DNA of 64,000 nucleotides from Thioalkalivibrio sp. ALJ3 (GTDB taxonomy: Bacteria > Pseudomonadota > Gammaproteobacteria > Ectothiorhodospirales > Ectothiorhodospiraceae): assembly GCF_000377205.1 (NCBI RefSeq), contig NZ_KB897906.1:30272-94271 (forward strand). Reading direction: 5' to 3'. Below, piece after piece: positions 2,871 to 16,204 of the stretch (its first letter is position 1; each line of letters begins with the position of its first letter). The notes under the pieces were generated by a model. It did not search any database and was not told where the DNA came from. It saw nothing but the letters and a program-made list of their open reading frames with translations. Position numbers and translations under genes: made by a program.

Positions 2871-3027
2871 GCCCCCGAGGCTGGGGGCCAACCCACTGTA
2901 GGAGGCGAGCCCTCTCGCCGATCGGGCCTGTCCAGCTCCCCATCGCCCAGAGGGCTGGGCTCCTACGAGAGGAGAGGGCTGTGGCGGCATGTGAACAAGA
3001 TGGGTGTCCTCTTTCTCCTCTTTCTCG
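2871..3027. repeat. BIME-like inverted REP repeat, copy B
   Basis: The palindromic pair of GTAGGAG arms spans 2898-2966, and the conserved tail includes GTGAACAAGATGGGTGTCC. It is very close to copies A, C and D. It sits between the 3' end of the YoeB-like gene and the upstream region of the FimX-like gene. The hairpins could stabilise or end transcripts. Confidence 0.8.
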
Positions 3028-3077: not shown

Positions 3078-3341
3078 TTACTCGTAGTGGCTCCATAAAC
3101 GAATCACCTTGACGACTCCCTCGTCTTCAAGCACCTGGTACACAAGCCGGTGTTGAATATTGATGCGCCGCGAGTATGCGCCGGAGAGATCACCCACCAG
3201 CTTCTCGAAAGGTGGGGGCTTTCGATACGGATCTTCCGCGATCAGCGTCAGCAGTTCCTGTGCCTTCGGCTTCAGGCCGCTGGTCGCCAGCTTCTTCGCA
3301 TCCTTCTGAGCCTGCCGGGTGTAGACCAACTTCCATGTCAC
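3078..3341 (-). CDS. yoeB: YoeB/Txe-family mRNA interferase toxin
   Basis: This 87-residue protein has the RelE-fold YoeB signature: N-terminal TWKLVYT followed by QAQKDAKKL, central NIQHRLVYQV, and a C-terminal LWSHYE close to the usual SHY ending. YoeB toxins cut mRNA at the ribosome. The GTG start at 3341 overlaps the antitoxin stop by four bases (GTGA), which indicates translational coupling; an upstream in-frame ATG would extend into the antitoxin. Family length is about 84-90 residues, so the gene appears intact. Confidence 0.9.
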   Translation of the reverse strand: MTWKLVYTRQAQKDAKKLATSGLKPKAQELLTLIAEDPYRKPPPFEKLVGDLSGAYSRRINIQHRLVYQVLEDEGVVKVIRLWSHYE

Positions 3342-3580
3342 CAATCCAGCTCCTCGTGGCATTCATCCGTTGGAGTATCCATGCCCTCGCGGATCGATTC
3401 CCGCATACCCGGCACCGATAGCAGGTACAGGGTCTCCTGAATGGCCGACCAGTCCGATTCGGATAGCAGGACTGCGTTGTTCCGCTTGCCGGTGATCACA
3501 ATCGGCTCGTGGGATTCCGCCGCTTCGTCGATCAGCCGGTAGAGGTTACTGCGCGCCTCTGTAGCCGTAATTCCCGTCAT
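3338..3580 (-). CDS. yefM: YefM/Phd-family antitoxin
   Basis: This 80-residue protein has the Phd/YefM fold: ITATEARSNLYRLIDEA at the N-terminus, then EPIVITGKRNNAVLLSESDW. The acidic C-terminus would wrap the toxin. The start is ATG 3580, with GAGG six bases upstream; longer in-frame starts run into a repeat region and lack a site. It is first in a two-gene operon with the YoeB-like toxin. By family precedent the complex represses its own promoter. Confidence 0.9.
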   Translation of the reverse strand: MTGITATEARSNLYRLIDEAAESHEPIVITGKRNNAVLLSESDWSAIQETLYLLSVPGMRESIREGMDTPTDECHEELDW

Positions 3581-3701
3581 GGCGCACCTCGCAAGTGTGT
3601 GGGCTTCGACCAAGAGTACGCCTTCGCGTACGTCCCGTAAACCGTACGGGTATTCCGTCACCGCCAGACACCGCAGAAACTGCGGTAACAGTTCGGATCA
3701 T

Positions 3702-3843
3702 TCCCGGAAACCGCGCAGCGGTTATACGGGATCTCGGGCGCCGGGGCAGGGCTGGCCGTCAGTGATCACGGCTCTCCGCCTCGGTTCCGTAGGGATGACG
3801 CCGTGGCGCTCGGAAGAAGATGGGTGTCCTCTTCCTTGCTCTT
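3702..3843. repeat. Dispersed ~130 bp repeat, family 2, copy 1
   Basis: The segment starts TCCCGGAAACCGC and runs through CAGCGGTTA, GGCTCTCC and GATGACG to GAAGAAGATGGGTG. The same order of blocks recurs at 6746-6875. This copy is more decayed, and its inner inverted repeat is imperfect. Its 3' block AAGATGGGTGTCCTCTT is shared with the tail of the BIME-like family. Bases 3581-3890 hold this repeat and no credible gene. Confidence 0.65.
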
Positions 3844-4592: not shown

Positions 4593-4668
4593 AGAGAGTT
4601 AGCGTGGTCCGACCCCGTCATGACCGACCCGGTCCGGCCCCGCGACTCCTTGCGTTGGGTGGACTGTG

Positions 4669-5913
4669 TCAGCTTGGGAATTGCTTCTGGGAGCGTGCGA
4701 TTTTCGCTTTCATCAACTCGGCCGGATAGCCGTTATGGACCAGCGTGTCGCGGATGTGGCCATAGTAACGGTGGTAGCCCTTGCAGTAGATCGAGGGATT
4801 GTCGAAGCCATTTTCCGCAGAGTACCGGTTCTCGATGTCGCCACCCCTGCAGATGCCGCGCCACTCGCAGGATAGACATTCGTCAGCTGCGCTAGCCTGG
4901 ATGCGCTGGACGTCCTCGAAAATGGGGTCATCCAGGAACTCCCGCAGGCTGTGCTGGTGGATGGAGTAGCGGGGAGTACGCGAATACCAGTCCAGCGCCG
5001 GGAGAAAGGAATCGTTCACCGAAACGCTGCCGTCGCTGTGCATCACCACGACCTGGAAGCCTTCCCGTCGGCCCCCCGCGCTGGGGTCTCCCTCCACGTC
5101 GTTGTCCTCGCGGACCTGCAGGTGTTGAAGGATCTCGCTGATCTGGCGCACGAAGATGCTCTTGTCGTCCTCTTCCAGCCAGGCCTGGAACAGCTCCGCC
5201 AGGCGCTCACCGTAGCGTTCGCTGCTTTCGCCTGGCTCGCTGAAGCCGTCATCCCGGTTCCGGTCAGGCAAGAGGAAGCTCATCTGCCGCACGCCAAGGG
5301 AGCGCAGGTAGCGGTAGACCTCGGCGTAGTCGTTGCGGTGATCCATCACCGAGATGGTCGATACCCCGCGTCCGTTGCCCGCATCGGCCCATGCGAGAAA
5401 CCGCCGGAGGTTGTTCTCCACCTGTCGGAAGGTGGAGCGGCCTTGATGATCGAGCCGGAAACGATCGTTGGCGGTGTGGTCGCCGTCGATGCTCAGGCCC
5501 ACGTGAACCCCGTATTCGTGGAACAAAGCCAACCATTCTTCGGTGAGCACGGTCCCATTGGTCTGGATCGTGAGTCCCATCGGTACCTGCGGTTCAATCC
5601 GTTGACGGAACGTTTCGCAGATTTGTTCGAACTCTCGCGGCTTGACCAGCATCGGTTCGCCACCATGGAAGGCGATAAGCACACGGCGGAAGCCAAGTTC
5701 CTGGCAACCCTGGGTGATCCAGTCCGCCATGGCCTCCACAGTCTCGGGTGTGGCCTTCACCGGTCGGTCGAAGGGGGTCTTGTCCCCCATGTTGAAGTAG
5801 TAACAGTAGGAGCAGTTGATGTTGCAGCGCTCCACGAGTTTGAAAACCACCTGGAGCGTGGTTCCCGCGAAGCGTCTTTCCGTCGTCTCGGATTGCACCC
5901 AGGCTTCCTGCAT
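4669..5913 (-). CDS. Radical SAM/SPASM peptide maturase (GRRM/cyclophane-type)
   Basis: This 414-residue enzyme has the radical SAM cluster motif CxxxCxxC at C30, C34 and C37 (CNINCSYCYYFN), then FHGGEP, TIQTNGT and GLSIDG, as in the anSME/XYE/FxsB/GRRM peptide-maturase group. The C-terminal SPASM-type region has CLSCEWRGIC, then NRYS, FDNPS and one more Cys. Only four cysteines are visible, where a full SPASM domain has seven, so it may hold one auxiliary cluster or use other ligands. It lies just downstream of an 83-residue repeat peptide on the same strand. By family precedent it should crosslink side chains in that peptide. The start is ATG 5913, with AGGAGG nine bases upstream; an in-frame ATG at 5979 has no such site. 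Confidence 0.85.
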   Translation of the reverse strand: MQEAWVQSETTERRFAGTTLQVVFKLVERCNINCSYCYYFNMGDKTPFDRPVKATPETVEAMADWITQGCQELGFRRVLIAFHGGEPMLVKPREFEQICETFRQRIEPQVPMGLTIQTNGTVLTEEWLALFHEYGVHVGLSIDGDHTANDRFRLDHQGRSTFRQVENNLRRFLAWADAGNGRGVSTISVMDHRNDYAEVYRYLRSLGVRQMSFLLPDRNRDDGFSEPGESSERYGERLAELFQAWLEEDDKSIFVRQISEILQHLQVREDNDVEGDPSAGGRREGFQVVVMHSDGSVSVNDSFLPALDWYSRTPRYSIHQHSLREFLDDPIFEDVQRIQASAADECLSCEWRGICRGGDIENRYSAENGFDNPSIYCKGYHRYYGHIRDTLVHNGYPAELMKAKIARSQKQFPS

Positions 5914-6030
5914 GTGGGGCTTCCTCCTGTGGCAAACGCCATACACGCCGCAACGGCCGACCCACGGCAACGCCTGCATGTGTCACCTGCAGGCACGGCA
6001 GTGTCCGTGCGTGGATGGTTGGGAATGTGA

Positions 6031-6060
6031 ACAGCCCCGCCAGCGGAGACTGGCGGGGCT
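6031..6060 (-). promoter_or_regulatory. Strong hairpin between precursor and maturase genes
   Basis: A perfect 11-bp stem, AGCCCCGCCAG with CTGGCGGGGCT around a six-base loop, lies right after the precursor stop codon. No T-run follows on the minus strand. It therefore looks like an attenuator or mRNA-stabilising hairpin that would yield more precursor than enzyme, rather than a full terminator. Confidence 0.65.
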
Positions 6061-6066
6061 GAGAGG

Positions 6067-6318
6067 CTAGCGGGGCAGTTCCGACGACTGGGTGTAGTCA
6101 CCCCCGCCGGACTGCGAGTAATCCCCGCCACCGCTCTGGCTATAGCTGCCACCGCCGCTTTGCCGGTAGTTGCCACCCTGGCCATGGTTCTGCAGGAGGT
6201 CGCCAATCCCGGGGAGGATCTCCGGACGCAACAGTCCGTCGATAATGGATTGGCCTATGAAGTCCTGGTAACGCTTCTGGAAAGCTTCCTGCTTGCGCGG
6301 GTCAAAACTGTCGTCCAT
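6067..6318 (-). CDS. Ribosomal-peptide (RiPP) precursor with four Y-x-Q repeats
   Basis: This 83-residue peptide has two parts. Residues 1-47 form a leader predicted helical (DPRKQEAFQKRYQDFIGQ, then LRPEILPGIGDLL). Residues 48-83 form four near-identical 8-residue units with core Y-x-Q-S-G-G-G: Y51-R-Q53, Y59-S-Q61, Y67-S-Q69 and Y75-T-Q77. The DNA repeats every 24 bases. Glycine-rich cores with a repeated aromatic residue are typical substrates of GRRM-type radical SAM enzymes, which join an aromatic ring to the side chain two residues on. The matching product here would be four three-residue cyclophanes on Y-x-Q; this is inference. The start is ATG 6318, preceded by AAGGAAACCGGC. No protease or exporter gene is adjacent. 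Confidence 0.8.
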   Translation of the reverse strand: MDDSFDPRKQEAFQKRYQDFIGQSIIDGLLRPEILPGIGDLLQNHGQGGNYRQSGGGSYSQSGGGDYSQSGGGDYTQSSELPR

Positions 6319-6638
6319 GCCGGTTTCCTTATCCTTGGATTAACCTGTCGAGATGTTGTCGCTGTGAGTCGCCCGTCCGGGACTTCCGAGTCTCGCGCGG
6401 GCCAGCAAGGTCGAGCGTAGACGTTGACCAGGGCCGAATCAATAGACGACTCCTGCCAACACGCCATGGCATCCTGAAACGAAGAACATGCGTTGCCATT
6501 TCGGGGGCGAAATGCCTTGCCTAAGGCTCAGAAGCCGTCCTTTCGCTGAAGGATCCCCGTTGACCCAGGGGCTTACCGTGGTTCGACCCCGCTATTCGAC
6601 TATACGCTGAAGGCAAGGTCTGACTCCGGAGCCCTCGC
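6319..6638. other. Intergenic region upstream of the peptide locus
   Basis: I see no credible gene in either strand here. It should contain the promoter of the precursor gene, but I could not pick a convincing -35/-10 pair. CGTGGTTCGACCCC at 6577-6590 and GGCAAGGTCTGACTCC at 6612-6627 are members of short dispersed motif families also found elsewhere in the window. Confidence 0.5.
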
Positions 6639-6745: not shown

Positions 6746-6875
6746 TCCCGGAAACCGCCCAGCGGTTATCCGGCATCTCGGGGGTGGGGCAGGCGTTGGC
6801 GTCAGAGATCCCGGCTCTCCACTTTACTGCGGCCGGGATGATGGCGTGGCACCTGGAAGAAGATGGGTGCCCACC
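6746..6875. repeat. Dispersed ~130 bp repeat, family 2, copy 2
   Basis: Same block order as at 3702: TCCCGGAAACCGC, CAGCGGTTA, CATCTCGGG, GGCTCTCC, GATGATGGCGTGG, GAAGAAGATGGGTG. This copy keeps an inner inverted repeat, ATCCCGGC to GCCGGGAT (about 6808-6840), that is decayed in copy 1. No coding potential is evident. Confidence 0.65.
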
Positions 6876-6890
6876 TTCTCGTCAGCTATT

Positions 6891-7003: not shown

Positions 7004-7135
7004 AGGCTGCGGCCAACCCACTGCAGGAGGCGAGCCCTCTCGCCGATCGGGCGTGTCCAGCGCCCCATCGCCCAGAGGGCTGGGCTCCTACCGGAGAAAG
7101 GGCCTGTGGCGGCATGTGAACAAGGTGGGACTCCG
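7004..7135. repeat. BIME-like inverted REP repeat, copy C
   Basis: The palindromic arms span 7023-7091, with the left head changed to GCAGGAG. The tail with GTGGCGGCATGTGAACAAG follows. It ends just before the promoter region of the HigBA module. Confidence 0.75.
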
Positions 7136-7160
7136 CCTTCTCGCCGCGCTAGTTAGCATA

Positions 7161-7195
7161 TTGACACGTGTCACGTGATACGAGACATTGGTTTT
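7161..7195 (+). promoter_or_regulatory. Probable promoter/operator of higBA
   Basis: TTGACA at 7161-7166 is a good -35 box. It overlaps the perfect palindrome GACACGTGTC, and CACGTG repeats a few bases on. A weak -10 (GACATT) lies 17 bases downstream. The overlap of palindrome and promoter suggests autorepression by the antitoxin, as in other higBA modules. Confidence 0.5.
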
Positions 7196-7477
7196 ATGAT
7201 CAAGACGTTCGCGGATCGGCGTACGCAAGAGTTGTACGCGACAGGGAAGTCGAAGCGGATCCCGCCGGATGTTGCCAGAAGGGCGGTCCGCAAGTTGGAC
7301 TATCTCTCGGTAGCCGAGCAGCTTGATGACTTGCGGGTTCCACCCGGCAATCGGCTGCACGCGCTGGAAGGAGATCGCAAGGGTCAGTATGCAATCTCCG
7401 TCAATGACCAGTGGCGGCTCTGCTTCCGGTTCGAGGACGGCGACGCCTTCGATGTCGAAATCACGGATTATCACTAG
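7196..7477 (+). CDS. higB: HigB-family mRNA interferase toxin
   Basis: This 93-residue RelE/HigB-type protein starts MIKTFADRRTQELY, the family N-terminus. It has PPGNRLHALEGDRKGQYAI and QWRLCFRF in the core and ends VEITDYH; the W-R-L-C-F and C-terminal D-Y-H are family hallmarks. HigB toxins cleave mRNA on the ribosome. ATG 7196 matches the family N-terminus; an earlier in-frame start would run into the palindromic operator. The toxin precedes the antitoxin, the reverse of most modules but normal for higBA. Confidence 0.92.
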   Translation: MIKTFADRRTQELYATGKSKRIPPDVARRAVRKLDYLSVAEQLDDLRVPPGNRLHALEGDRKGQYAISVNDQWRLCFRFEDGDAFDVEITDYH

Positions 7478-7486
7478 GAGGCAATA

Positions 7487-7804
7487 GTGGTGAGCATCCC
7501 CAACACTACCGGTCTGAAGCGGCGGCCGACCCATCCGGGTGAAATGCTGCGCGAGGACTTTCTCCCGGATTTTGGCCTGAGCACCGCGGAGTTGGCCAAG
7601 GCGGCAGGCGTATCGCGCCAGTCCATCAACGAACTGCTGCGCGAACGTCGAGCTCTAAGTCCGGAGATGGCACTGCGGCTCGCACGGCTGTTCGGGACTA
7701 CCCCGGAGTACTGGATGAATGCCCAACGTGCCGTGGACCTCTGGGACGCCGCCCAGGCCATTCAGGACGACATAAACCGCATCCACCCACTAGACGCCGC
7801 CTGA
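7487..7804 (+). CDS. higA: HigA-family antitoxin
   Basis: This 105-residue helix-turn-helix protein has the HigA signature RRPTHPGEMLREDFL. An HTH follows (STAELAKAAGVSRQSINELLRERR), then SPEMALRLARLFGTTPEYWMNAQ. It should neutralise HigB and repress the higBA promoter. The start is GTG 7487 behind AGGAGG; the next codon, GTG 7490, is also possible. It lies nine bases after higB. Confidence 0.92.
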   Translation: MVSIPNTTGLKRRPTHPGEMLREDFLPDFGLSTAELAKAAGVSRQSINELLRERRALSPEMALRLARLFGTTPEYWMNAQRAVDLWDAAQAIQDDINRIHPLDAA

Positions 7805-7869: not shown

Positions 7870-8083
7870 CTGAGACTGGGTCCTACCACTGTAGGAGGCG
7901 AGCCCTCTCGCCGATCGGGCATGTCCAGCGCCCCATCGCCCAGAGGGCTGGGCTCCTACGAGAGGAGAGGGCTGTGGCGGCATGTGAACAAGATGGGTGT
8001 CCTCTTTCTCCTCCAGGGCTCCTACGAGAGGAGAGGGCTGTGGCGGCATGTGAACAAGATGGGTGTCCTCTTTCTCCTTGTCC
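7870..8083. repeat. BIME-like inverted REP repeat, copy D, with tandem 66 bp duplication
   Basis: The palindromic arms span 7891-7959. The right half plus tail is then repeated in tandem with a 66-base period (7950-8015 and 8016-8078); the two units match over about their first 63 bases. This is the only copy here with a duplication. It suggests slippage or unequal recombination within the repeat. Confidence 0.8.
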
Positions 8084-8129
8084 TCGAGGCGTTGTGGGCT
8101 CAATCCGAAGGTAGATTCCCCGGACGCCT

Positions 8130-9953: not shown

Positions 9954-10988
9954 CTATTGCTCGGCGGAATTGCCAGGCTGCTCGAATACCACCCATCCGT
10001 GGGCGCAGTCCTGGCAGGTGCTGGTGTAGGTCGGGCCGGATTTGGTCACTCGGACCTTGCGGGATTGGCAGGCCGGGCAGGGCAGCTTCATTGAGGTGTT
10101 CGTGCCGCAGGAGTCGCAGCGCACGTAGTAGCCGTATTTGCCGTACATGCCGGTCAGCTGGTCTTGCTCGCCGCATTTCTTGCAGGCGAGAGTGGAGGCC
10201 TGACTCGGGCTCGTAGCAGGCGAGGGCGCGGTTTGGCTGGGCTGCGGTTTCGGCATTGACGGTCGCTGCGCGTTTGGTGCTGGCTCGGGGTTGGCGGAAA
10301 CGGGCGGTTCCTGGACCCGCGGGGCCGGCTCGGCCACGGCCGAAGCATTCACGCTTGGCCCGAGGTGGTTCTGGAGCAGGAAGTCGCCGATGCCTTCGAT
10401 TTCCTTCTGACTGAATCGTGGCCGGGCCGTGACCAGCCCCTTGGCCCGTGAGCCGACCAGTTCGCGTACCTTTTCCGCGACGAACTCGCTCTTCACCACG
10501 CGGTTCGCGATCGCACGGGGCATCTCATCGCGATGCAGGATCGCGCTGCTGGATACGGCGCAGAGCGTCTCCCATTCACGGTTGCCAATCTGGGTCTGGA
10601 TGCCCAGCAGTCGACCGAGGAACTTCTCCACGTTCTGGCGAAGAAGATCCTTGACCAGGGCCTCCTGCAGCTCTGCCTGCCGCACAGGGGAGGGCATGCC
10701 GTACCAGTCGCCGCGGTAGCTACGCGACCACTCCCCATGGCCGTTCACCTTCACCTCGCCGTAGATGCTTTTTGACTCGATGAGGACGAGCCCATAGGGA
10801 TGCACCACCAGGTGGTCGATCTGCGCGCGCTCCCCGTTATGCTCGATGCGCAGGTCGTTGATGATCCGCACGGTCTCATCGTCGCCAAATTCGCGCCGCA
10901 GGTAGAACGCTACGTCCTGTTCCTGCTGGTGCCCGGCCTTCGAGCGTTCATCTTGGCCGCTTAGGCCGTCCTTCTCCTTAAGAATCAT
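9954..10988 (-). CDS. NERD nuclease-related domain protein with C-terminal zinc ribbons
   Basis: This 344-residue protein has an N-terminal NERD domain (about residues 20-130). It shows the nuclease-like core GERAQIDHLVVHPYGLVLIESKS, with Asp and E-x-K residues in the expected places. A proline/serine/alanine-rich linker follows (about 215-270). The C-terminus has CxxC pairs (CKKCGEQD, CDSCGTN, CPACQS, CQDC) forming topoisomerase-type zinc ribbons. NERD proteins are predicted DNA-processing factors and often lie in defence or mobile regions. ATG 10988 has AGGAG in front. The P-loop ATPase lies 183 bases upstream on the same strand. Confidence 0.8.
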   Translation of the reverse strand: MILKEKDGLSGQDERSKAGHQQEQDVAFYLRREFGDDETVRIINDLRIEHNGERAQIDHLVVHPYGLVLIESKSIYGEVKVNGHGEWSRSYRGDWYGMPSPVRQAELQEALVKDLLRQNVEKFLGRLLGIQTQIGNREWETLCAVSSSAILHRDEMPRAIANRVVKSEFVAEKVRELVGSRAKGLVTARPRFSQKEIEGIGDFLLQNHLGPSVNASAVAEPAPRVQEPPVSANPEPAPNAQRPSMPKPQPSQTAPSPATSPSQASTLACKKCGEQDQLTGMYGKYGYYVRCDSCGTNTSMKLPCPACQSRKVRVTKSGPTYTSTCQDCAHGWVVFEQPGNSAEQ

Positions 10989-11171
10989 CGAATCTCCTGA
11001 GTTGAGCCGTACAGCCTCTCCGTCGTCGCCTTACACGATTTTCGCCAAATTCCCCCAGCGGCGGATTGCAGCGTCGAAATGGGCACTTTAAGTGCGTTGA
11101 AGAAGCCTTCACGGGACGTTAATCGCCTGCAATACATCTGATTACCGTGGTCCTACCCCATCATGGAAGCG

Positions 11172-12473
11172 TTAAATCTCGTCGACCGGATTGGGGATGT
11201 CCTCAAGAATTTCCTCACGATCACAATGCCGGAGAAAGAAGTAAAGCGATGAATCAATAATCTTCAACACTTTTCCTCCGCGATCGTAATCGACAAATGG
11301 CGGTTGGATCTTCTTCGTGACTTGGTGCTGAGTGATGTTGTGAAGAAACTGCCCAAGATCACTCGAGCGAACATCTTCTGGGCGATGATGAATATTGCGA
11401 ATTTCCTCTAGCAACTTTCCTCTCGAGAGGCCGCGCTCGATATCGGAGAACTCATGGGTAAGAAGCAGGCGGATAAAGTAGTACGGGTAGGCGAGCGATG
11501 GCTTCCCACTCTGAGAGCTCTTACGAACTCTGACATCTACAAACGACTCGAAGTTACGAACGTGCCTCACACCGTATTCGTTCGCTTTCGCTTCCATTGC
11601 AGATTCCAAATGTTCCGGGGTTATTGATACCTTCGTTTGCGAAGTTGCATCTACACCTGCCTCTAAGCAGCAAAACTTACATAATTCCTGCACGACCCCG
11701 ACACTGTCGAAGGATTCGGCGACAATTCTGTCACGCACTTGAGAGAAGTCCACGTTAAGTAATTCCTCGCCCTTCCCAATGACGGCAAGGAAATCTTCGG
11801 CGCTCCATGGCTCAACTGGGACCTCGGTAACGCGGTCCAGAAGGTCACCATTGAATTGGACTAAGCGATTTGCCTCCCGCCAAATACCTAGAACAACAAA
11901 AATCAAATGGTGATCTTGAAAGATTCGCAGATCATAAGCTAGCGACTCTTGCACTTCATGAGGGAGATAGTGAAAGTTTTCTAGAACAACGAACCTGTCG
12001 AATGTTTTTGCATGCAATAGCTCTGAGACGTCCTGTGCTAGAGCTAGGTTGTATTCAATGTGTGTTTCCGTTCTTCCGCTTGAATCACCCCTCCGCTCAT
12101 CTGCTTCGGTATTGACGCCAGCGTCGCCAAAGAACGGCACTTTCGCCATGAATCCGCCGCCCACCTTGGCGCCGGATTCGTAGGTTGCTTCTAGGCTTTC
12201 CGACTCGATGAAGGTGACGCCCAGTTGCCTCAGAATAGATTTGTAAATATCTACAGTAGTCGTTTGCGGTGAACATTCGACCTTTACATATTGGGCGGGC
12301 TCCAGGTGTCGAAGGATCAGCGAAGTCTTGCCTTGTTTGGACGAGCCATAGACAATAACTTCGTTTCCGCTGCCAAGCGCATCTTGGAAGCGTTTATCAA
12401 CGGCTTCCCGCTCGATATATGACTTGATGAGAGTGCTCTTTACGCCGAACACGTCAGTTGTCTTATACGTCAA
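11172..12473 (-). CDS. P-loop ATPase of unknown family, possible defence protein
   Basis: This 433-residue protein has a Walker A motif in YGSSKQGKTSLILRHL (about residues 43-58). A hydrophobic strand ending in an acidic residue, RFVVLENFHYLP, is a probable Walker B. AAA+/STAND-like helices follow. The C-terminal half has no domain I recognise. It begins at TTG 12473, behind AGGGAGAGCAAA. The coding sequence is clearly AT-richer than its neighbours, a sign of transfer. It is divergent in style but parallel in strand to the NERD gene and the restriction-modification gene, so it may belong to a defence island. It could also be a regulator or part of a mobile element. Confidence 0.6.
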   Translation of the reverse strand: MTYKTTDVFGVKSTLIKSYIEREAVDKRFQDALGSGNEVIVYGSSKQGKTSLILRHLEPAQYVKVECSPQTTTVDIYKSILRQLGVTFIESESLEATYESGAKVGGGFMAKVPFFGDAGVNTEADERRGDSSGRTETHIEYNLALAQDVSELLHAKTFDRFVVLENFHYLPHEVQESLAYDLRIFQDHHLIFVVLGIWREANRLVQFNGDLLDRVTEVPVEPWSAEDFLAVIGKGEELLNVDFSQVRDRIVAESFDSVGVVQELCKFCCLEAGVDATSQTKVSITPEHLESAMEAKANEYGVRHVRNFESFVDVRVRKSSQSGKPSLAYPYYFIRLLLTHEFSDIERGLSRGKLLEEIRNIHHRPEDVRSSDLGQFLHNITQHQVTKKIQPPFVDYDRGGKVLKIIDSSLYFFLRHCDREEILEDIPNPVDEI

Positions 12474-12703
12474 TTTGCTCTCCCTAGAGATCTAGCTGTG
12501 AATGGGTAGCGGGCACGGATATCGGATGGACCTTCGCGCTTGTTCAATTAGATAATGGACCGGCTGTCCAATGTATGAAAAGGACATGGAATTAGGTGGG
12601 TGCTTGGGCCGAGAGGGTTTTAGTCCGGTGTTATCTCGCGCGGTTATAGATGCGGTTTGGTGCCATGGCCGTTCGCTGAACTCGTGATACTGCGGGTCGA
12701 TTG
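12474..12703. other. Intergenic region upstream of the P-loop ATPase
   Basis: This 230-base stretch is AT-rich in its left half and should contain the promoter of the ATPase gene. I see no gene, repeat or clear terminator. It marks the composition switch between the AT-richer ATPase gene and the GC-rich restriction-modification gene. Confidence 0.4.
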
Positions 12704-15700
12704 TCATGTCAGGCGCCAATGGTCGTTGTCTGTGGTGGCCTGGCCGAGGATTTGGAGGGCGGCGAGGACCTGGGTGATCGATTTTGTCGGTTTGCGCTTG
12801 AAGTGGCTGGCCAGGGCTTCCGGGGTTTGGGGGCCGATGGCGAGGAGGCGGCGGACGGCTTCGACCTGGTCGGGCATGGATTTGGGCCAGGTTGGCTTTT
12901 TGGCCGGTTCGGTCGGGGTCTCGGCGGCGGCCTCGGGTTTGGCTTCCAGGGTGGCGGTGGTCTGGGTGGCTTCGGGGGCCTGGTATTCGGGGCGCAGCCA
13001 GCGGATGTGGCCCTGGGCTTCTTCGGCGGCGCGTTCGGCGTTGAGCGCGACGAGGCGGCTGAGGAGTTCTTCCTCGGCTTCGGCCTGGTCGGCGGGCTTG
13101 TCCGGCAGCGGGGTGGTGGCGCCGGGTCGGGCGACGAGGCGGTCGGCGAGGTCGTGCCAGCCGTAGGCGTCGAAGGCGGCGCGGTCGAGGTCGTCGTGCA
13201 GTTCGCGCAGCAGGGAGACGAGGCCCTGTTCGTGGATGGTGCGTTCCTTGGCGGTCAGCGGTTCTTCGGCGCGCAGTTTTTCCAGCACGTTGTACATGCC
13301 GGTGAGGGTGAGGTCCGGGTGTTCGGCCTGACGCTCCTTGCGGTGGGCGTCGATGCGTTCGGCGAGGTCGCCGATGGTGGCGGCCTGCTGGTCGTCGAGT
13401 TCCGGGAAGGGGAAGGTCTCGAAGCAGCGGGTCTTGTTGTAGCGGGCATCGTTGCCCATGCCCAGACGCCCACCTGCGGCGAGCGCCCATGCTGCATGGA
13501 TGCGGCTGGACAGGACACCCAAAATGGCAGGCTTGTCGATGGCGATGTTCACCAGCATGTTGTCGGGCAGGATGTCCGCGTCGAGGAACTGGAAGGCGCG
13601 GTGCTTGGTGGTCTCTACGGTGGCGATGTAGCACGGGAGGCCTGCGGCCATGTTTCGCCAGTCCTTTCGGGGTTCACCGAAGAGCCACCATTTCTCACGG
13701 TATCCAGTCCGATTGTTCTGATCTCGCTCAGGTTTGACGCGTTCCAGAACCCATTGATAGATCGCAGGGAAACGACCTTTTACGTCTTCGATCGTGAGGC
13801 CAAACAGGTCTATGACCATAACGTTGCGTGGTGTCTGGGTTAGATCGCGCCCGTTTCGATACTGGCGAATGACCTGCGAGGTCGGGGCGTCCGCGTCCCA
13901 ACCGAGTTCGACAGCCTGCTCGATCGTGACGATAAAACCAGAGCCGATGAGCTGGACACCACGTGACGCGAGATTCGCGTTGGCCGCCAGAGGCGCACTT
14001 CCTGCCACGTTCGCCCCGACCGTGATATCCGCAAACAGCTTGCCCGCTCGTTGGTTCAGTTCGACTGAACGGGCATCGTCGTCCGTATCGCGTTCGTTGA
14101 CGACGTGTCGCAGTGTTCCGGGCTGTTCCCCGGCTACGCCGACGGTCATGGCGATGCGCACGGCGGCGCCGTCGGCGCTGTCCACCCAGGGGTGGTCGGG
14201 GATGGCGAACGCCAGCGACAGGGGCTTCTTGCTGTCGTTCAGGTGCGGTTCGAGTACGCGCCGGTTGAAGGTCTGGCGCAGGCTGTTGGTGGTGATGAAG
14301 CCGAAGCGTCGGGCCTCACCCTTGCGGACCTTCTCGGCGGCGATGTGCCACCAGTACATGACGAAGTCGGCGGAGTCCGGGACGATGCCTTTGAAGACCT
14401 TGCGCACGGCATCCACGTAGCCGTCGCCCAGTGCGCGGCGCATGGTGGCGGCGCCGATAAACGGCGGGTTGCCGACGATGTAGTCGGCTTCGGGCCATTC
14501 GGCGCGGCGCGGGTTGCTGTAGTGGTAGACGGGGGTGCGGGCGGTCTCGTCGGGGATGAGTTCGCCGGTGACGGGGCTTTTCTTGTAGCTGATGCCGTCC
14601 CAGATGGTCACGGGCTGGCCGTGGTCGTCGGTCATGGGTTCGCGGGCATCAAAGTCGATCAGCGCGTCGCGGCATTCGATGTTGTGGAAGTCGCGCAGGA
14701 TGGGTTCGGGCAGGCTGAGGCGGCCGTGCAGGCGGTAGTGCCATTGCAGGTAGCCGATCCACAGGACGATCTCGGCGATGGCGGCGGCGCGTGGGTTGAT
14801 CTCCAGCCCGAGAAACTGGTGCGGGTCGACGGTGAGGCCTTCGGTGTCGAAGGTGCTCTGCCCGGCGCTCAGGTCGCGGATGAGGTTGAGCACTTCGCCT
14901 TCGAGGCGCTTGAGGTGTTCCAGCGCCACGTAGAGGAAGTTGCCGGAGCCGCAGGCGGGGTCGAGCACGCGCACTTCGCGCAGGCGCTGGTGGAAACGGT
15001 GCAGTTCGTCCAGGGCCTTGTCGGGCTTGTTCTGCTGCAGCCAGGCCTCGGCAGCGACCTGCACGGTGTTCCATTCGGCGCGCAGGGGCTCGATGAGCGT
15101 GGGCATGACCAGGCGTTCCACGTAGGCGCGCGGGGTGTAGTGGGCGCCGAGCTTGTGGCGTTCGCGCGGGTCCAGCGCGCGTTCCAGCAGGGTGCCGAAG
15201 ATGGCGGGTTCGACGAAGCGCCAGTCGGCCTTGCCGGCCTGGATGAGCAGGCCGATCTGGTCGGCGTTGAGCGGGATGGGGTCGATGTTCTGGAACAGGC
15301 CGCCGTTGAAGCGCTGCAGCTTGTGCATCAGCTGGCCTTCATAGCCGCCGGTGTTCATCGTCTCCCACAGCGAGCGCATGGCGTCGGGGAAGTGTTCGGG
15401 GTTCTGCTGCAGGCGTTCCAGCAGGGCGGTGAAGCTGCCCTTGGGCAGGAGTTCGACGTCCTCGCTGAACATGGTGAACAGGCAGCGCTTGAGGAAGTGG
15501 GCGACGCGCTCGACATCAAAGCCGTGCTGTTCCAGGGATTTGGCCAGTTCGGCCAGGCGCGCGCTGACCTCGCGGGTGACGCGGGCGGCGTGCTTGCTGG
15601 CGTCGAGCTGGTCGGGCGCCAGCCACAGGTGGTGCAGGCGCTGCTGAATCTCGGGGTCGCGCAGGTCTTCCAGGCGGATGCGGTGGCGGCTCGGGTCCGG

Positions 15701-16204
15701 GTAGGGGACGTAGGTGCCGCCGGAGCGGGAGAACTCGGCGTAGAGCTCGAGGCTGCGGCCGACATCGGTGACCACGATGAACGGCGGGCGGCCTTCGTCT
15801 TCCGGCAGGGCGCGCACGTACTGGTCGGCCTGGTTCTGCGCGGCGAGCATGGCCTTGTCCCAGCCCTGGGTGTGCAGGCCCTTGCCGGTCTGCTTGGCCT
15901 CCAGCACGAAGCAGCCGCGGCGGTAGAGGTCGATGTAGCCGCGGTTCTCGCTGCCGTCCGGGTTGCGGATCGTCACGCGGCGTTCGAAGACGTAGGCGTT
16001 GTCTGCGGTGTCGTCGCTGGCCGGGTCGGGCTGGGGCAGGTCCAGCAGTTTGCACAGCTCGGTGAGGAAGAGCTGGTAGTTGGCGCGCTCGCTGCCGCCG
16101 GCCTCCTGCCAGCGGTCGAGGAAGGCCTCGACCTGCTCCGGCGGGGCAATGGGGGCGGGGCCGGATTCTTCGGCGTGGGCCGGGCGGGCCGCGAGTCCAT
16201 CCAT
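12704..16204 (-). CDS. Fused restriction endonuclease / DNA methyltransferase (type IIG/IIL-like)
   Basis: This 1166-residue protein carries cutting and methylation parts. Near the N-terminus, D92 and E102-A-K104 (GYIDLYRRGCFVLEAKQ) fit a PD-(D/E)xK nuclease. The methyltransferase has the SAM motif DPACGSGNF near residue 418 and the catalytic NPPF near 577, typical of N6-adenine methyltransferases. A target-recognition region follows. A C-terminal winged-helix-like segment starts at about residue 1100. The layout resembles MmeI/Eco57I-type enzymes; BREX PglX is similar in size but lacks the nuclease motif. GC content is high. The start ATG 16204 has no good ribosome site, so a different start is possible. 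Confidence 0.8.
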   Translation of the reverse strand: MDGLAARPAHAEESGPAPIAPPEQVEAFLDRWQEAGGSERANYQLFLTELCKLLDLPQPDPASDDTADNAYVFERRVTIRNPDGSENRGYIDLYRRGCFVLEAKQTGKGLHTQGWDKAMLAAQNQADQYVRALPEDEGRPPFIVVTDVGRSLELYAEFSRSGGTYVPYPDPSRHRIRLEDLRDPEIQQRLHHLWLAPDQLDASKHAARVTREVSARLAELAKSLEQHGFDVERVAHFLKRCLFTMFSEDVELLPKGSFTALLERLQQNPEHFPDAMRSLWETMNTGGYEGQLMHKLQRFNGGLFQNIDPIPLNADQIGLLIQAGKADWRFVEPAIFGTLLERALDPRERHKLGAHYTPRAYVERLVMPTLIEPLRAEWNTVQVAAEAWLQQNKPDKALDELHRFHQRLREVRVLDPACGSGNFLYVALEHLKRLEGEVLNLIRDLSAGQSTFDTEGLTVDPHQFLGLEINPRAAAIAEIVLWIGYLQWHYRLHGRLSLPEPILRDFHNIECRDALIDFDAREPMTDDHGQPVTIWDGISYKKSPVTGELIPDETARTPVYHYSNPRRAEWPEADYIVGNPPFIGAATMRRALGDGYVDAVRKVFKGIVPDSADFVMYWWHIAAEKVRKGEARRFGFITTNSLRQTFNRRVLEPHLNDSKKPLSLAFAIPDHPWVDSADGAAVRIAMTVGVAGEQPGTLRHVVNERDTDDDARSVELNQRAGKLFADITVGANVAGSAPLAANANLASRGVQLIGSGFIVTIEQAVELGWDADAPTSQVIRQYRNGRDLTQTPRNVMVIDLFGLTIEDVKGRFPAIYQWVLERVKPERDQNNRTGYREKWWLFGEPRKDWRNMAAGLPCYIATVETTKHRAFQFLDADILPDNMLVNIAIDKPAILGVLSSRIHAAWALAAGGRLGMGNDARYNKTRCFETFPFPELDDQQAATIGDLAERIDAHRKERQAEHPDLTLTGMYNVLEKLRAEEPLTAKERTIHEQGLVSLLRELHDDLDRAAFDAYGWHDLADRLVARPGATTPLPDKPADQAEAEEELLSRLVALNAERAAEEAQGHIRWLRPEYQAPEATQTTATLEAKPEAAAETPTEPAKKPTWPKSMPDQVEAVRRLLAIGPQTPEALASHFKRKPTKSITQVLAALQILGQATTDNDHWRLT

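Follow-up and report, generated by a model that had tools for sequence, protein, structure and literature searches.

Triceptide maturases bond an aromatic ring to the C-beta of the residue two positions on (i+2) (PMC11002830). Known pairings include Trp or Phe donors with Asn, Asp, Arg or Ser acceptors, a His donor with Ala or Arg, and a Tyr donor with Asp in YxdB or with Arg in YhhB (PMC11002830); PMC9055067 adds the Trp-Lys bond of darobactin. Compared by described chemistry, YxdB, a Tyr-x-Asp triceptide maturase that joins Tyr C3 to the C-beta at i+2 (PMC11002830), is closest to the locus presented here, but its acceptor is Asp. The YhhA/YhhB system, which forms Tyr-Arg and His-Arg cyclophanes, gives the locus its best NCBIfam score and resembles it in Tyr/His donors, an i+2 acceptor and a repeated motif. 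YhhB uses Arg as acceptor, not the Gln predicted here, and belongs to a different clade, and no YhhC oxygenase occurs at the Y-x-Q locus. XyeA/XyeB and XncB also produce i to i+2 cyclophanes, and the XyeB model scores 231 bits here and 289 bits for the Pseudoalteromonas member of the group; these systems differ in using Trp or Phe as donor and Asn or Arg as acceptor, and in having a short core, a leader of the GG type and an ABC exporter nearby.

Two further systems resemble the locus in their multiplicity. In ChlA/ChlB (crystal structures 9gm3 and 9gmc), a single ChlB enzyme installs several cyclophanes per precursor, as is predicted here, and a reference title cited in PMC12636437 names ChlB a 'multiple cyclophane synthase'. 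The radical SAM cluster and the four-Cys auxiliary site of ChlB align with those of the Y-x-Q maturase. However, the two enzymes share about 25-26% identity, the Y-x-Q locus has no fused or adjoining HExxH hydroxylase domain, and hydroxylation of the Chl product falls on His and Asp (PMC12636437), which means that the Chl substrate is unlike Tyr-x-Gln. TvgA/TvgB, acting on Thr-Val-Gly-Gly repeats, likewise combines a Gly-rich repeated core with one radical SAM enzyme that modifies several repeats, yet TvgB forms cyclopropylglycine within Val and makes no cross-link between residues (PMC9062424).

In a 64,000-nucleotide stretch of Thioalkalivibrio sp. ALJ3 DNA (the window), two adjacent genes probably constitute a minimal RiPP locus, which by analogy with these systems would represent a new subgroup of the three-residue cyclophane RiPPs, or triceptides, whose native motif is Tyr-x-Gln. 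The accessible triceptide literature, outside which key primary papers lie, contains no case of Gln as a native acceptor.

The precursor and maturase genes

The locus consists of the following features:

6067..6318, minus strand: precursor peptide gene, 83 aa (ORF call)
Precursor residues about 1-49: leader, motif IGQxIIxGLLxPExLPGI
6085..6171, minus strand: precursor core, N-YRQ-SGGGS-YSQ-SGGGD-YSQ-SGGGD-YTQ-S (from sequence)
6032..6061, minus strand: 13-bp perfect hairpin CAGCCCCGCCAGTCTCCGCTGGCGGGGCTG shortly 3' of the precursor stop, no T-run, -27.8 kcal/mol
4669..5913, minus strand: radical SAM/SPASM maturase (predicted cyclophane synthase), 414 aa (NCBIfam, tree, predicted fold)

The precursor (MDDSF...GQGGNYRQSGGGSYSQSGGGDYSQSGGGDYTQSSELPR) is indeed the 83-residue peptide of the initial annotation, with a leader and four 8-residue Y-x-Q units containing glycines. 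The four units start exactly 8 residues apart, each Gln is directly followed by Ser, and the peptide ends in SSELPR after the last Y-x-Q (core NYRQ...YTQ-SSELPR). Two glycines stand ahead of the first unit (GQGG-NY in the window, SISGG-NY in Pseudoalteromonas); the window residues before them do not match a classical GG leader. Searches of Pfam, NCBIfam, PHROGs and PADLOC gave no match to the precursor. Because it lacks Cys, thioether chemistry is excluded for the window precursor, which offers none of the core Cys donors that define sactipeptides and ranthipeptides.

Shuffling the 34-residue core of the window gave at least four Y-x-Q in 7 of 200,000 trials; the five-unit cores of an Alteromonadaceae genome (G926) and of Pseudoalteromonas gave none in 200,000. 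The codons of the units also differ (TAC/TAT for Tyr, CAA/CAG for Gln, AGC/TCC/TCG for Ser), so the repeat is not a fresh DNA duplication. Together with conservation across lineages, these results rule out both chance and a DNA-level tandem repeat.

The maturase gene follows the precursor on the same strand, as first described, while its start needed correction from 5979 to 5913. The start at 5913 is the most likely one: CAGGAGG, which contains a strong AGGAGG, lies just 5' of its ATG, and the close strain Thioalkalivibrio sp. ALJ16 carries a 1-nt indel in the stretch from 5979 to 5913. Both observations make the longer frame unlikely. The protein contains the expected CxxxCxxC motif (C30, C34 and C37) and the four-Cys C-terminal region (C346, C349, C355 and C377).

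A hairpin after a precursor gene is a common means of obtaining more precursor than enzyme. The hairpin at 6032-6061, which ALJ16 largely retains apart from a single G-U change and an altered terminal pair, may lower maturase expression relative to that of the precursor, and hairpins occupy the equivalent place after the precursor in the Pseudoalteromonas and G926 loci. No Rfam RNA family was detected in or near the gene pair, and promoter and terminator scans found none.

Conservation across four lineages

The pair recurs in relatives, in keeping with the original reading of a two-gene locus. Five distinct precursor-maturase pairs were found in four lineages: Thioalkalivibrio, a gammaproteobacterium (G219), G926 and Pseudoalteromonas. 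In ALJ16, the enzyme is 97% identical, and the precursor differs by one substitution in the leader, leaving a core identical to that of the window. The G219 enzyme aligns in two pieces (54% and 44% identity); in the assembly, its gene is disrupted by a frameshift as well as an in-frame stop. The G926 enzyme is about 43% identical, and its precursor has five units followed by a C-terminal extension. In Pseudoalteromonas sp. NC201 and P. piscicida, the pair lies on megaplasmids, with 35-36% enzyme identity and five units. The leader motif is clear in every locus but that of Pseudoalteromonas, where it is weaker.

Across the five pairs, Gln stands at i+2 of every core tyrosine (17/17), and one G219 unit has His in place of Tyr (THTQ) while retaining x-Gln. 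The middle residue, the residue after Gln and the unit spacing vary, although some glycine spacers are kept. Thus, the Tyr and Gln positions and the triplet itself are fixed as anticipated, whereas the 8-residue period is local to Thioalkalivibrio, spacing elsewhere being 6-10, and the unit count drifts between 4 and 5. A scan of the collected loci for small ORFs with at least three aromatic-x-Gln motifs found no such Gly-rich architecture outside the Y-x-Q loci; the remaining cases look like chance.

The Y-x-Q family is rare and very patchily distributed. Among 30 Thioalkalivibrio genomes, two encode a full-length enzyme, and full-length relatives occur in 1 of 6 genomes of the G926 genus. 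Two genomes carry the pair among 397 of the G926 family, taken as Alteromonadaceae from protein identity and its inclusion of the NC201 copy. Such scarcity, along with nearby toxin-antitoxin pairs and repeats and the broken G219 copy, could point to a dead or drifting accessory pair that yields no product in Thioalkalivibrio. This is very improbable, given that both genes are intact with SD-like sites. Moreover, pN/pS between the window and ALJ16 is 0.14 for the enzyme and 0.08 for the precursor (the latter from only 5 differences), so both genes look maintained.

Two local features of the relatives deserve mention. The 40-residue extension of the G926 precursor (L127 5455-5574), which ends in ERMIRAGVLNKG, is faintly leader-like and may be a follower peptide. 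In G219, two similar coding-like fragments (L026 1194-2144 and 4749-5426), in the same minus-strand reading, flank the pair, which adjoins a gene resembling ABC-transporter permeases; the arrangement looks as though a local duplication had brought the cassette in.

Maturase placement and proposed chemistry

Profile searches place the enzyme near several cyclophane maturases, with scores that reach none of the curated cut-offs tested: 249.1 bits against 445 for YhhB (NF041707), 230.7 against 450 for XyeB (TIGR04496), 220.2 against 370 for FxsB (TIGR04269), 88.9 against 310 for GrrM/OscB (TIGR04261) and 159.2 against 349 for the anaerobic sulfatase maturase (TIGR03942). The five Y-x-Q maturases reach 200-290 bits with three cyclophane-maturase models, all under the cut-offs, and the best E-values among YhhB, XyeB and FxsB matches go down to 6e-74. 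In a maximum-likelihood tree of 30 rows, the five form one clade (support 100/98), outside which lie the XyeB, MscB-type (F-x-S), YhhB and HaaB/FxsB rows, with the sulfatase maturase on a separate branch. The proposed kinship with cyclophane enzymes is supported: the nearest named families are YhhB, XyeB, FxsB and ChlB, and GrrM/OscB is more distant (89 bits).

Among solved proteins, ChlB is closest both by sequence (E 1.6e-33, or E 3.8e-86 with a profile) and by predicted fold. An AlphaFold2 model of the maturase (mean pLDDT 86.9, pTM 0.85) matches ChlB (9gmc/9gm3) with Z 41.8 and an rmsd of 2.0 Å over 360 residues, followed by an anaerobic sulfatase maturase at Z 35, while thioether and streptide enzymes give Z 20-29. 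The rank of the sulfatase maturase as second closest solved fold, its 159 bits and the Ser that follows Gln in all window units would suit an enzyme that oxidizes the Ser of Y-x-Q-S to formylglycine or otherwise modifies single residues. Such an activity is scarcely credible, since the Ser is not conserved (the Pseudoalteromonas units have C, N, R, G and R), no sulfatase or C/S-x-P/A-x-R motif is present, and the sulfatase maturase branches separately. Profiles, tree and predicted fold instead group the enzyme with peptide-modifying cyclophane maturases, as had been claimed.

At least 93% of 28 cyclophane-type enzymes conserve CxxxCxxC, the auxiliary site 346/349/355/377 and D301, whose counterpart in the sulfatase maturase is the CDFY Asp. 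Residues Q21, Y196, S212, Q287, D359 and E361 are constant in the Y-x-Q clade and rare or absent elsewhere. Position 212 is Ser in the clade and Asp in nearly all other cyclophane-type enzymes, and D359 occurs in 5/5 members and in 0/23 other cyclophane-type maturases. The proposed clade is marked by monophyly, the SPASM motif C[RG]GGD[ILM]ENR[YF]S and a Y-x-Q precursor, all three of which its members display. Both marks of the triceptide class are likewise found: homology of the maturase to XyeB/YhhB/FxsB/ChlB (220-249 bits, tree, ChlB fold) and an adjoining precursor with a conserved aromatic-x-acceptor (Y-x-Q at 17/17 core Tyr in four lineages).

These results suggest that the Y-x-Q pairs are a small, apparently unnamed branch of the cyclophane peptide family, covered by no curated model tested. 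As the maturases fall below all curated NCBI models, such loci are likely missed or unnamed at present. The cyclophane-type reading of the initial annotation gains support from gene co-occurrence, the fixed Tyr and Gln, and the enzyme grouping, while the bond itself is proposed by analogy.

Because a Gln acceptor does not appear in the accessible literature and all family cut-offs were missed, the enzyme might perform a different radical reaction on Tyr-x-Gln, such as linking Tyr-O or Tyr-N to Gln, bonding at Gln C-gamma or C-alpha, joining Tyr to Tyr between units, or causing epimerization or desaturation. The related maturase DarE makes, according to PMC9055067, an ether at one residue pair and a C-C bond at another, and S212, Y196, Q287 and D359 are rare or absent in other cyclophane maturases. 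Nevertheless, triceptide maturases make ring to C-beta bonds at i+2 (PMC11002830), and the tree and predicted fold put this enzyme among them, which renders a different reaction rather improbable; inter-unit links are further disfavoured because the unit spacing varies.

In the preferred cyclophane reading, the precursor would be made ribosomally, and its leader, with the conserved IGQ-type motif, would be bound by the maturase. A 5'-deoxyadenosyl radical would then allow the maturase to abstract a hydrogen from the C-beta of each core Gln, which would be joined to the ring, expectedly at C3, of the Tyr two residues before. The product would carry up to four separate Tyr-x-Gln cyclophanes on flexible Gly-rich linkers, with a loss of 2 Da each and 8 Da in total. 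We infer the Tyr ring to Gln C-beta C-C bond, its position and the number of modified units from the known triceptide systems. Leader removal and export, if they occur, would depend on enzymes encoded elsewhere.

If this is true, Gln would join Asn, Asp, Arg, Ser, Ala and Lys, the native acceptors of three-residue cyclophane enzymes in the accessible literature. The signature residues S212, D359 and E361 would then allow acceptor choice to be related, in a testable way, to the sequence of the active site, and the multi-unit, Gly-spaced core a simple system for studying how, and in which direction, one enzyme works along a repeat.

Other multi-unit precursors also appear in the collected loci. 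A genome of another class (G1691) encodes a precursor whose C-terminus consists of five SFDL units in tandem (SFDLSFDLSFDLSFDLSFDLSWSR; L142 4325-4522, minus strand), another unnamed multi-unit motif, next to an XyeB-like maturase (L142 3017-4285, minus strand) that scores 344 bits, below the cut-off. In G603, an XyeB-like maturase adjoins a small precursor (L039 3814-3993, plus strand) in which His-x-Ser occurs four times (HGS-AHGS-GHAS-GHLS), a possible His-x-Ser cyclophane substrate. Precursors with repeated GGNFVSAP units (Phe-x-Ser, an MscB-type motif) occur at L140 4776-5084 and L141 4278-4718, both minus-strand, and the maturases beside them clearly group as a separate clade in the tree.

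Genomic neighbourhood and possible role

Several features surround the pair in the window:

4593..6490, minus strand: 1.9 kb block common with ALJ16 (96% identity, blastn), a unit present or absent
3078-3583, minus strand: type II toxin-antitoxin pair, YoeB/ParE-type with Phd/YefM, on one side of the RiPP pair
7175-7804, plus strand: type II toxin-antitoxin pair, HigB with HTH antitoxin, on the other side
9954-16204, minus strand: defence-like cluster with a NERD-domain protein, an AAA protein and a type IIG restriction-methyltransferase

The absence of an adjoining exporter or protease was confirmed, and no transporter, protease or tailoring enzyme lies next to the pair in the window. Four C39 peptidase matches occur elsewhere in the genome, and two of them lie in frames long enough (719 and 774 codons) to fit peptidase-ABC exporters. 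In Pseudoalteromonas, the gene after the enzyme encodes a protein with a signal-like N-terminus, an HEVFHIW motif and a weak, below-cut-off likeness to M1 peptidases, and in G926 a JmjC_2 oxygenase gene is convergent to the maturase. Adjoining genes, including these two, are not common to different lineages.

A phage origin was rejected. Close patterns found no relative in IMG/VR, a profile scan returned only relatives of at most 31% identity over long stretches with no adjoining Y-x-Q precursor, and phage-record relatives reached at most about 24%. The single GGD-x-ENRYS match in viral contigs is a chance one that does not encode the enzyme. In plasmid records, the Pseudoalteromonas precursor is confined to two Pseudoalteromonas megaplasmid copies, and no other plasmid relative exceeds 36%.

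In the window's defence-like cluster, the AAA protein (ATPase) matches the PADLOC candidate PDC-S59 (E 4e-69), and the type IIG restriction-methyltransferase scores 1598 bits. The G926 neighbours show weak PADLOC matches to metallo-beta-lactamase-type and PDC-S05 models. The pair lies in an accessory, conflict-gene neighbourhood. With defence or toxin-antitoxin genes around it in two lineages or more, the pair may have a role in conflict. A fuller proposal, tentative and on present evidence unlikely, is a native Tyr-x-Gln RiPP class, carried as a two-gene accessory cassette, in which one enzyme would turn a Gly-rich repeat into four or five rigid Tyr-Gln rings in a row, acting in conflict and not as a conventional exported bacteriocin.

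The 1.9 kb block is flanked by two copies of a dispersed repeat, each about 135 nt long (3702-3836 and 6746-6879; D3/D4). ALJ16 likewise has repeat copies to either side of the pair, and the adjoining genes differ from those of the window. The flanking dispersed repeats are hairpin-rich, but inspection by eye revealed no attC-type core site of an integron array. Further repeats of about 130 nt (D1) occur in the window at 19-139, 2893-3027, 7018-7152, 7886-8020 and 8016-8086, and copies in locus L002 lie at 4208-4073, 7414-7280, 8540-8406 and 9389-9255. In both Thioalkalivibrio genomes, hairpin-rich repeats of about 130 nt separate small cassettes, namely toxin-antitoxin genes and the RiPP pair, within a variable region. 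These dispersed repeats resemble REP elements and could indicate a hotspot for insertion.
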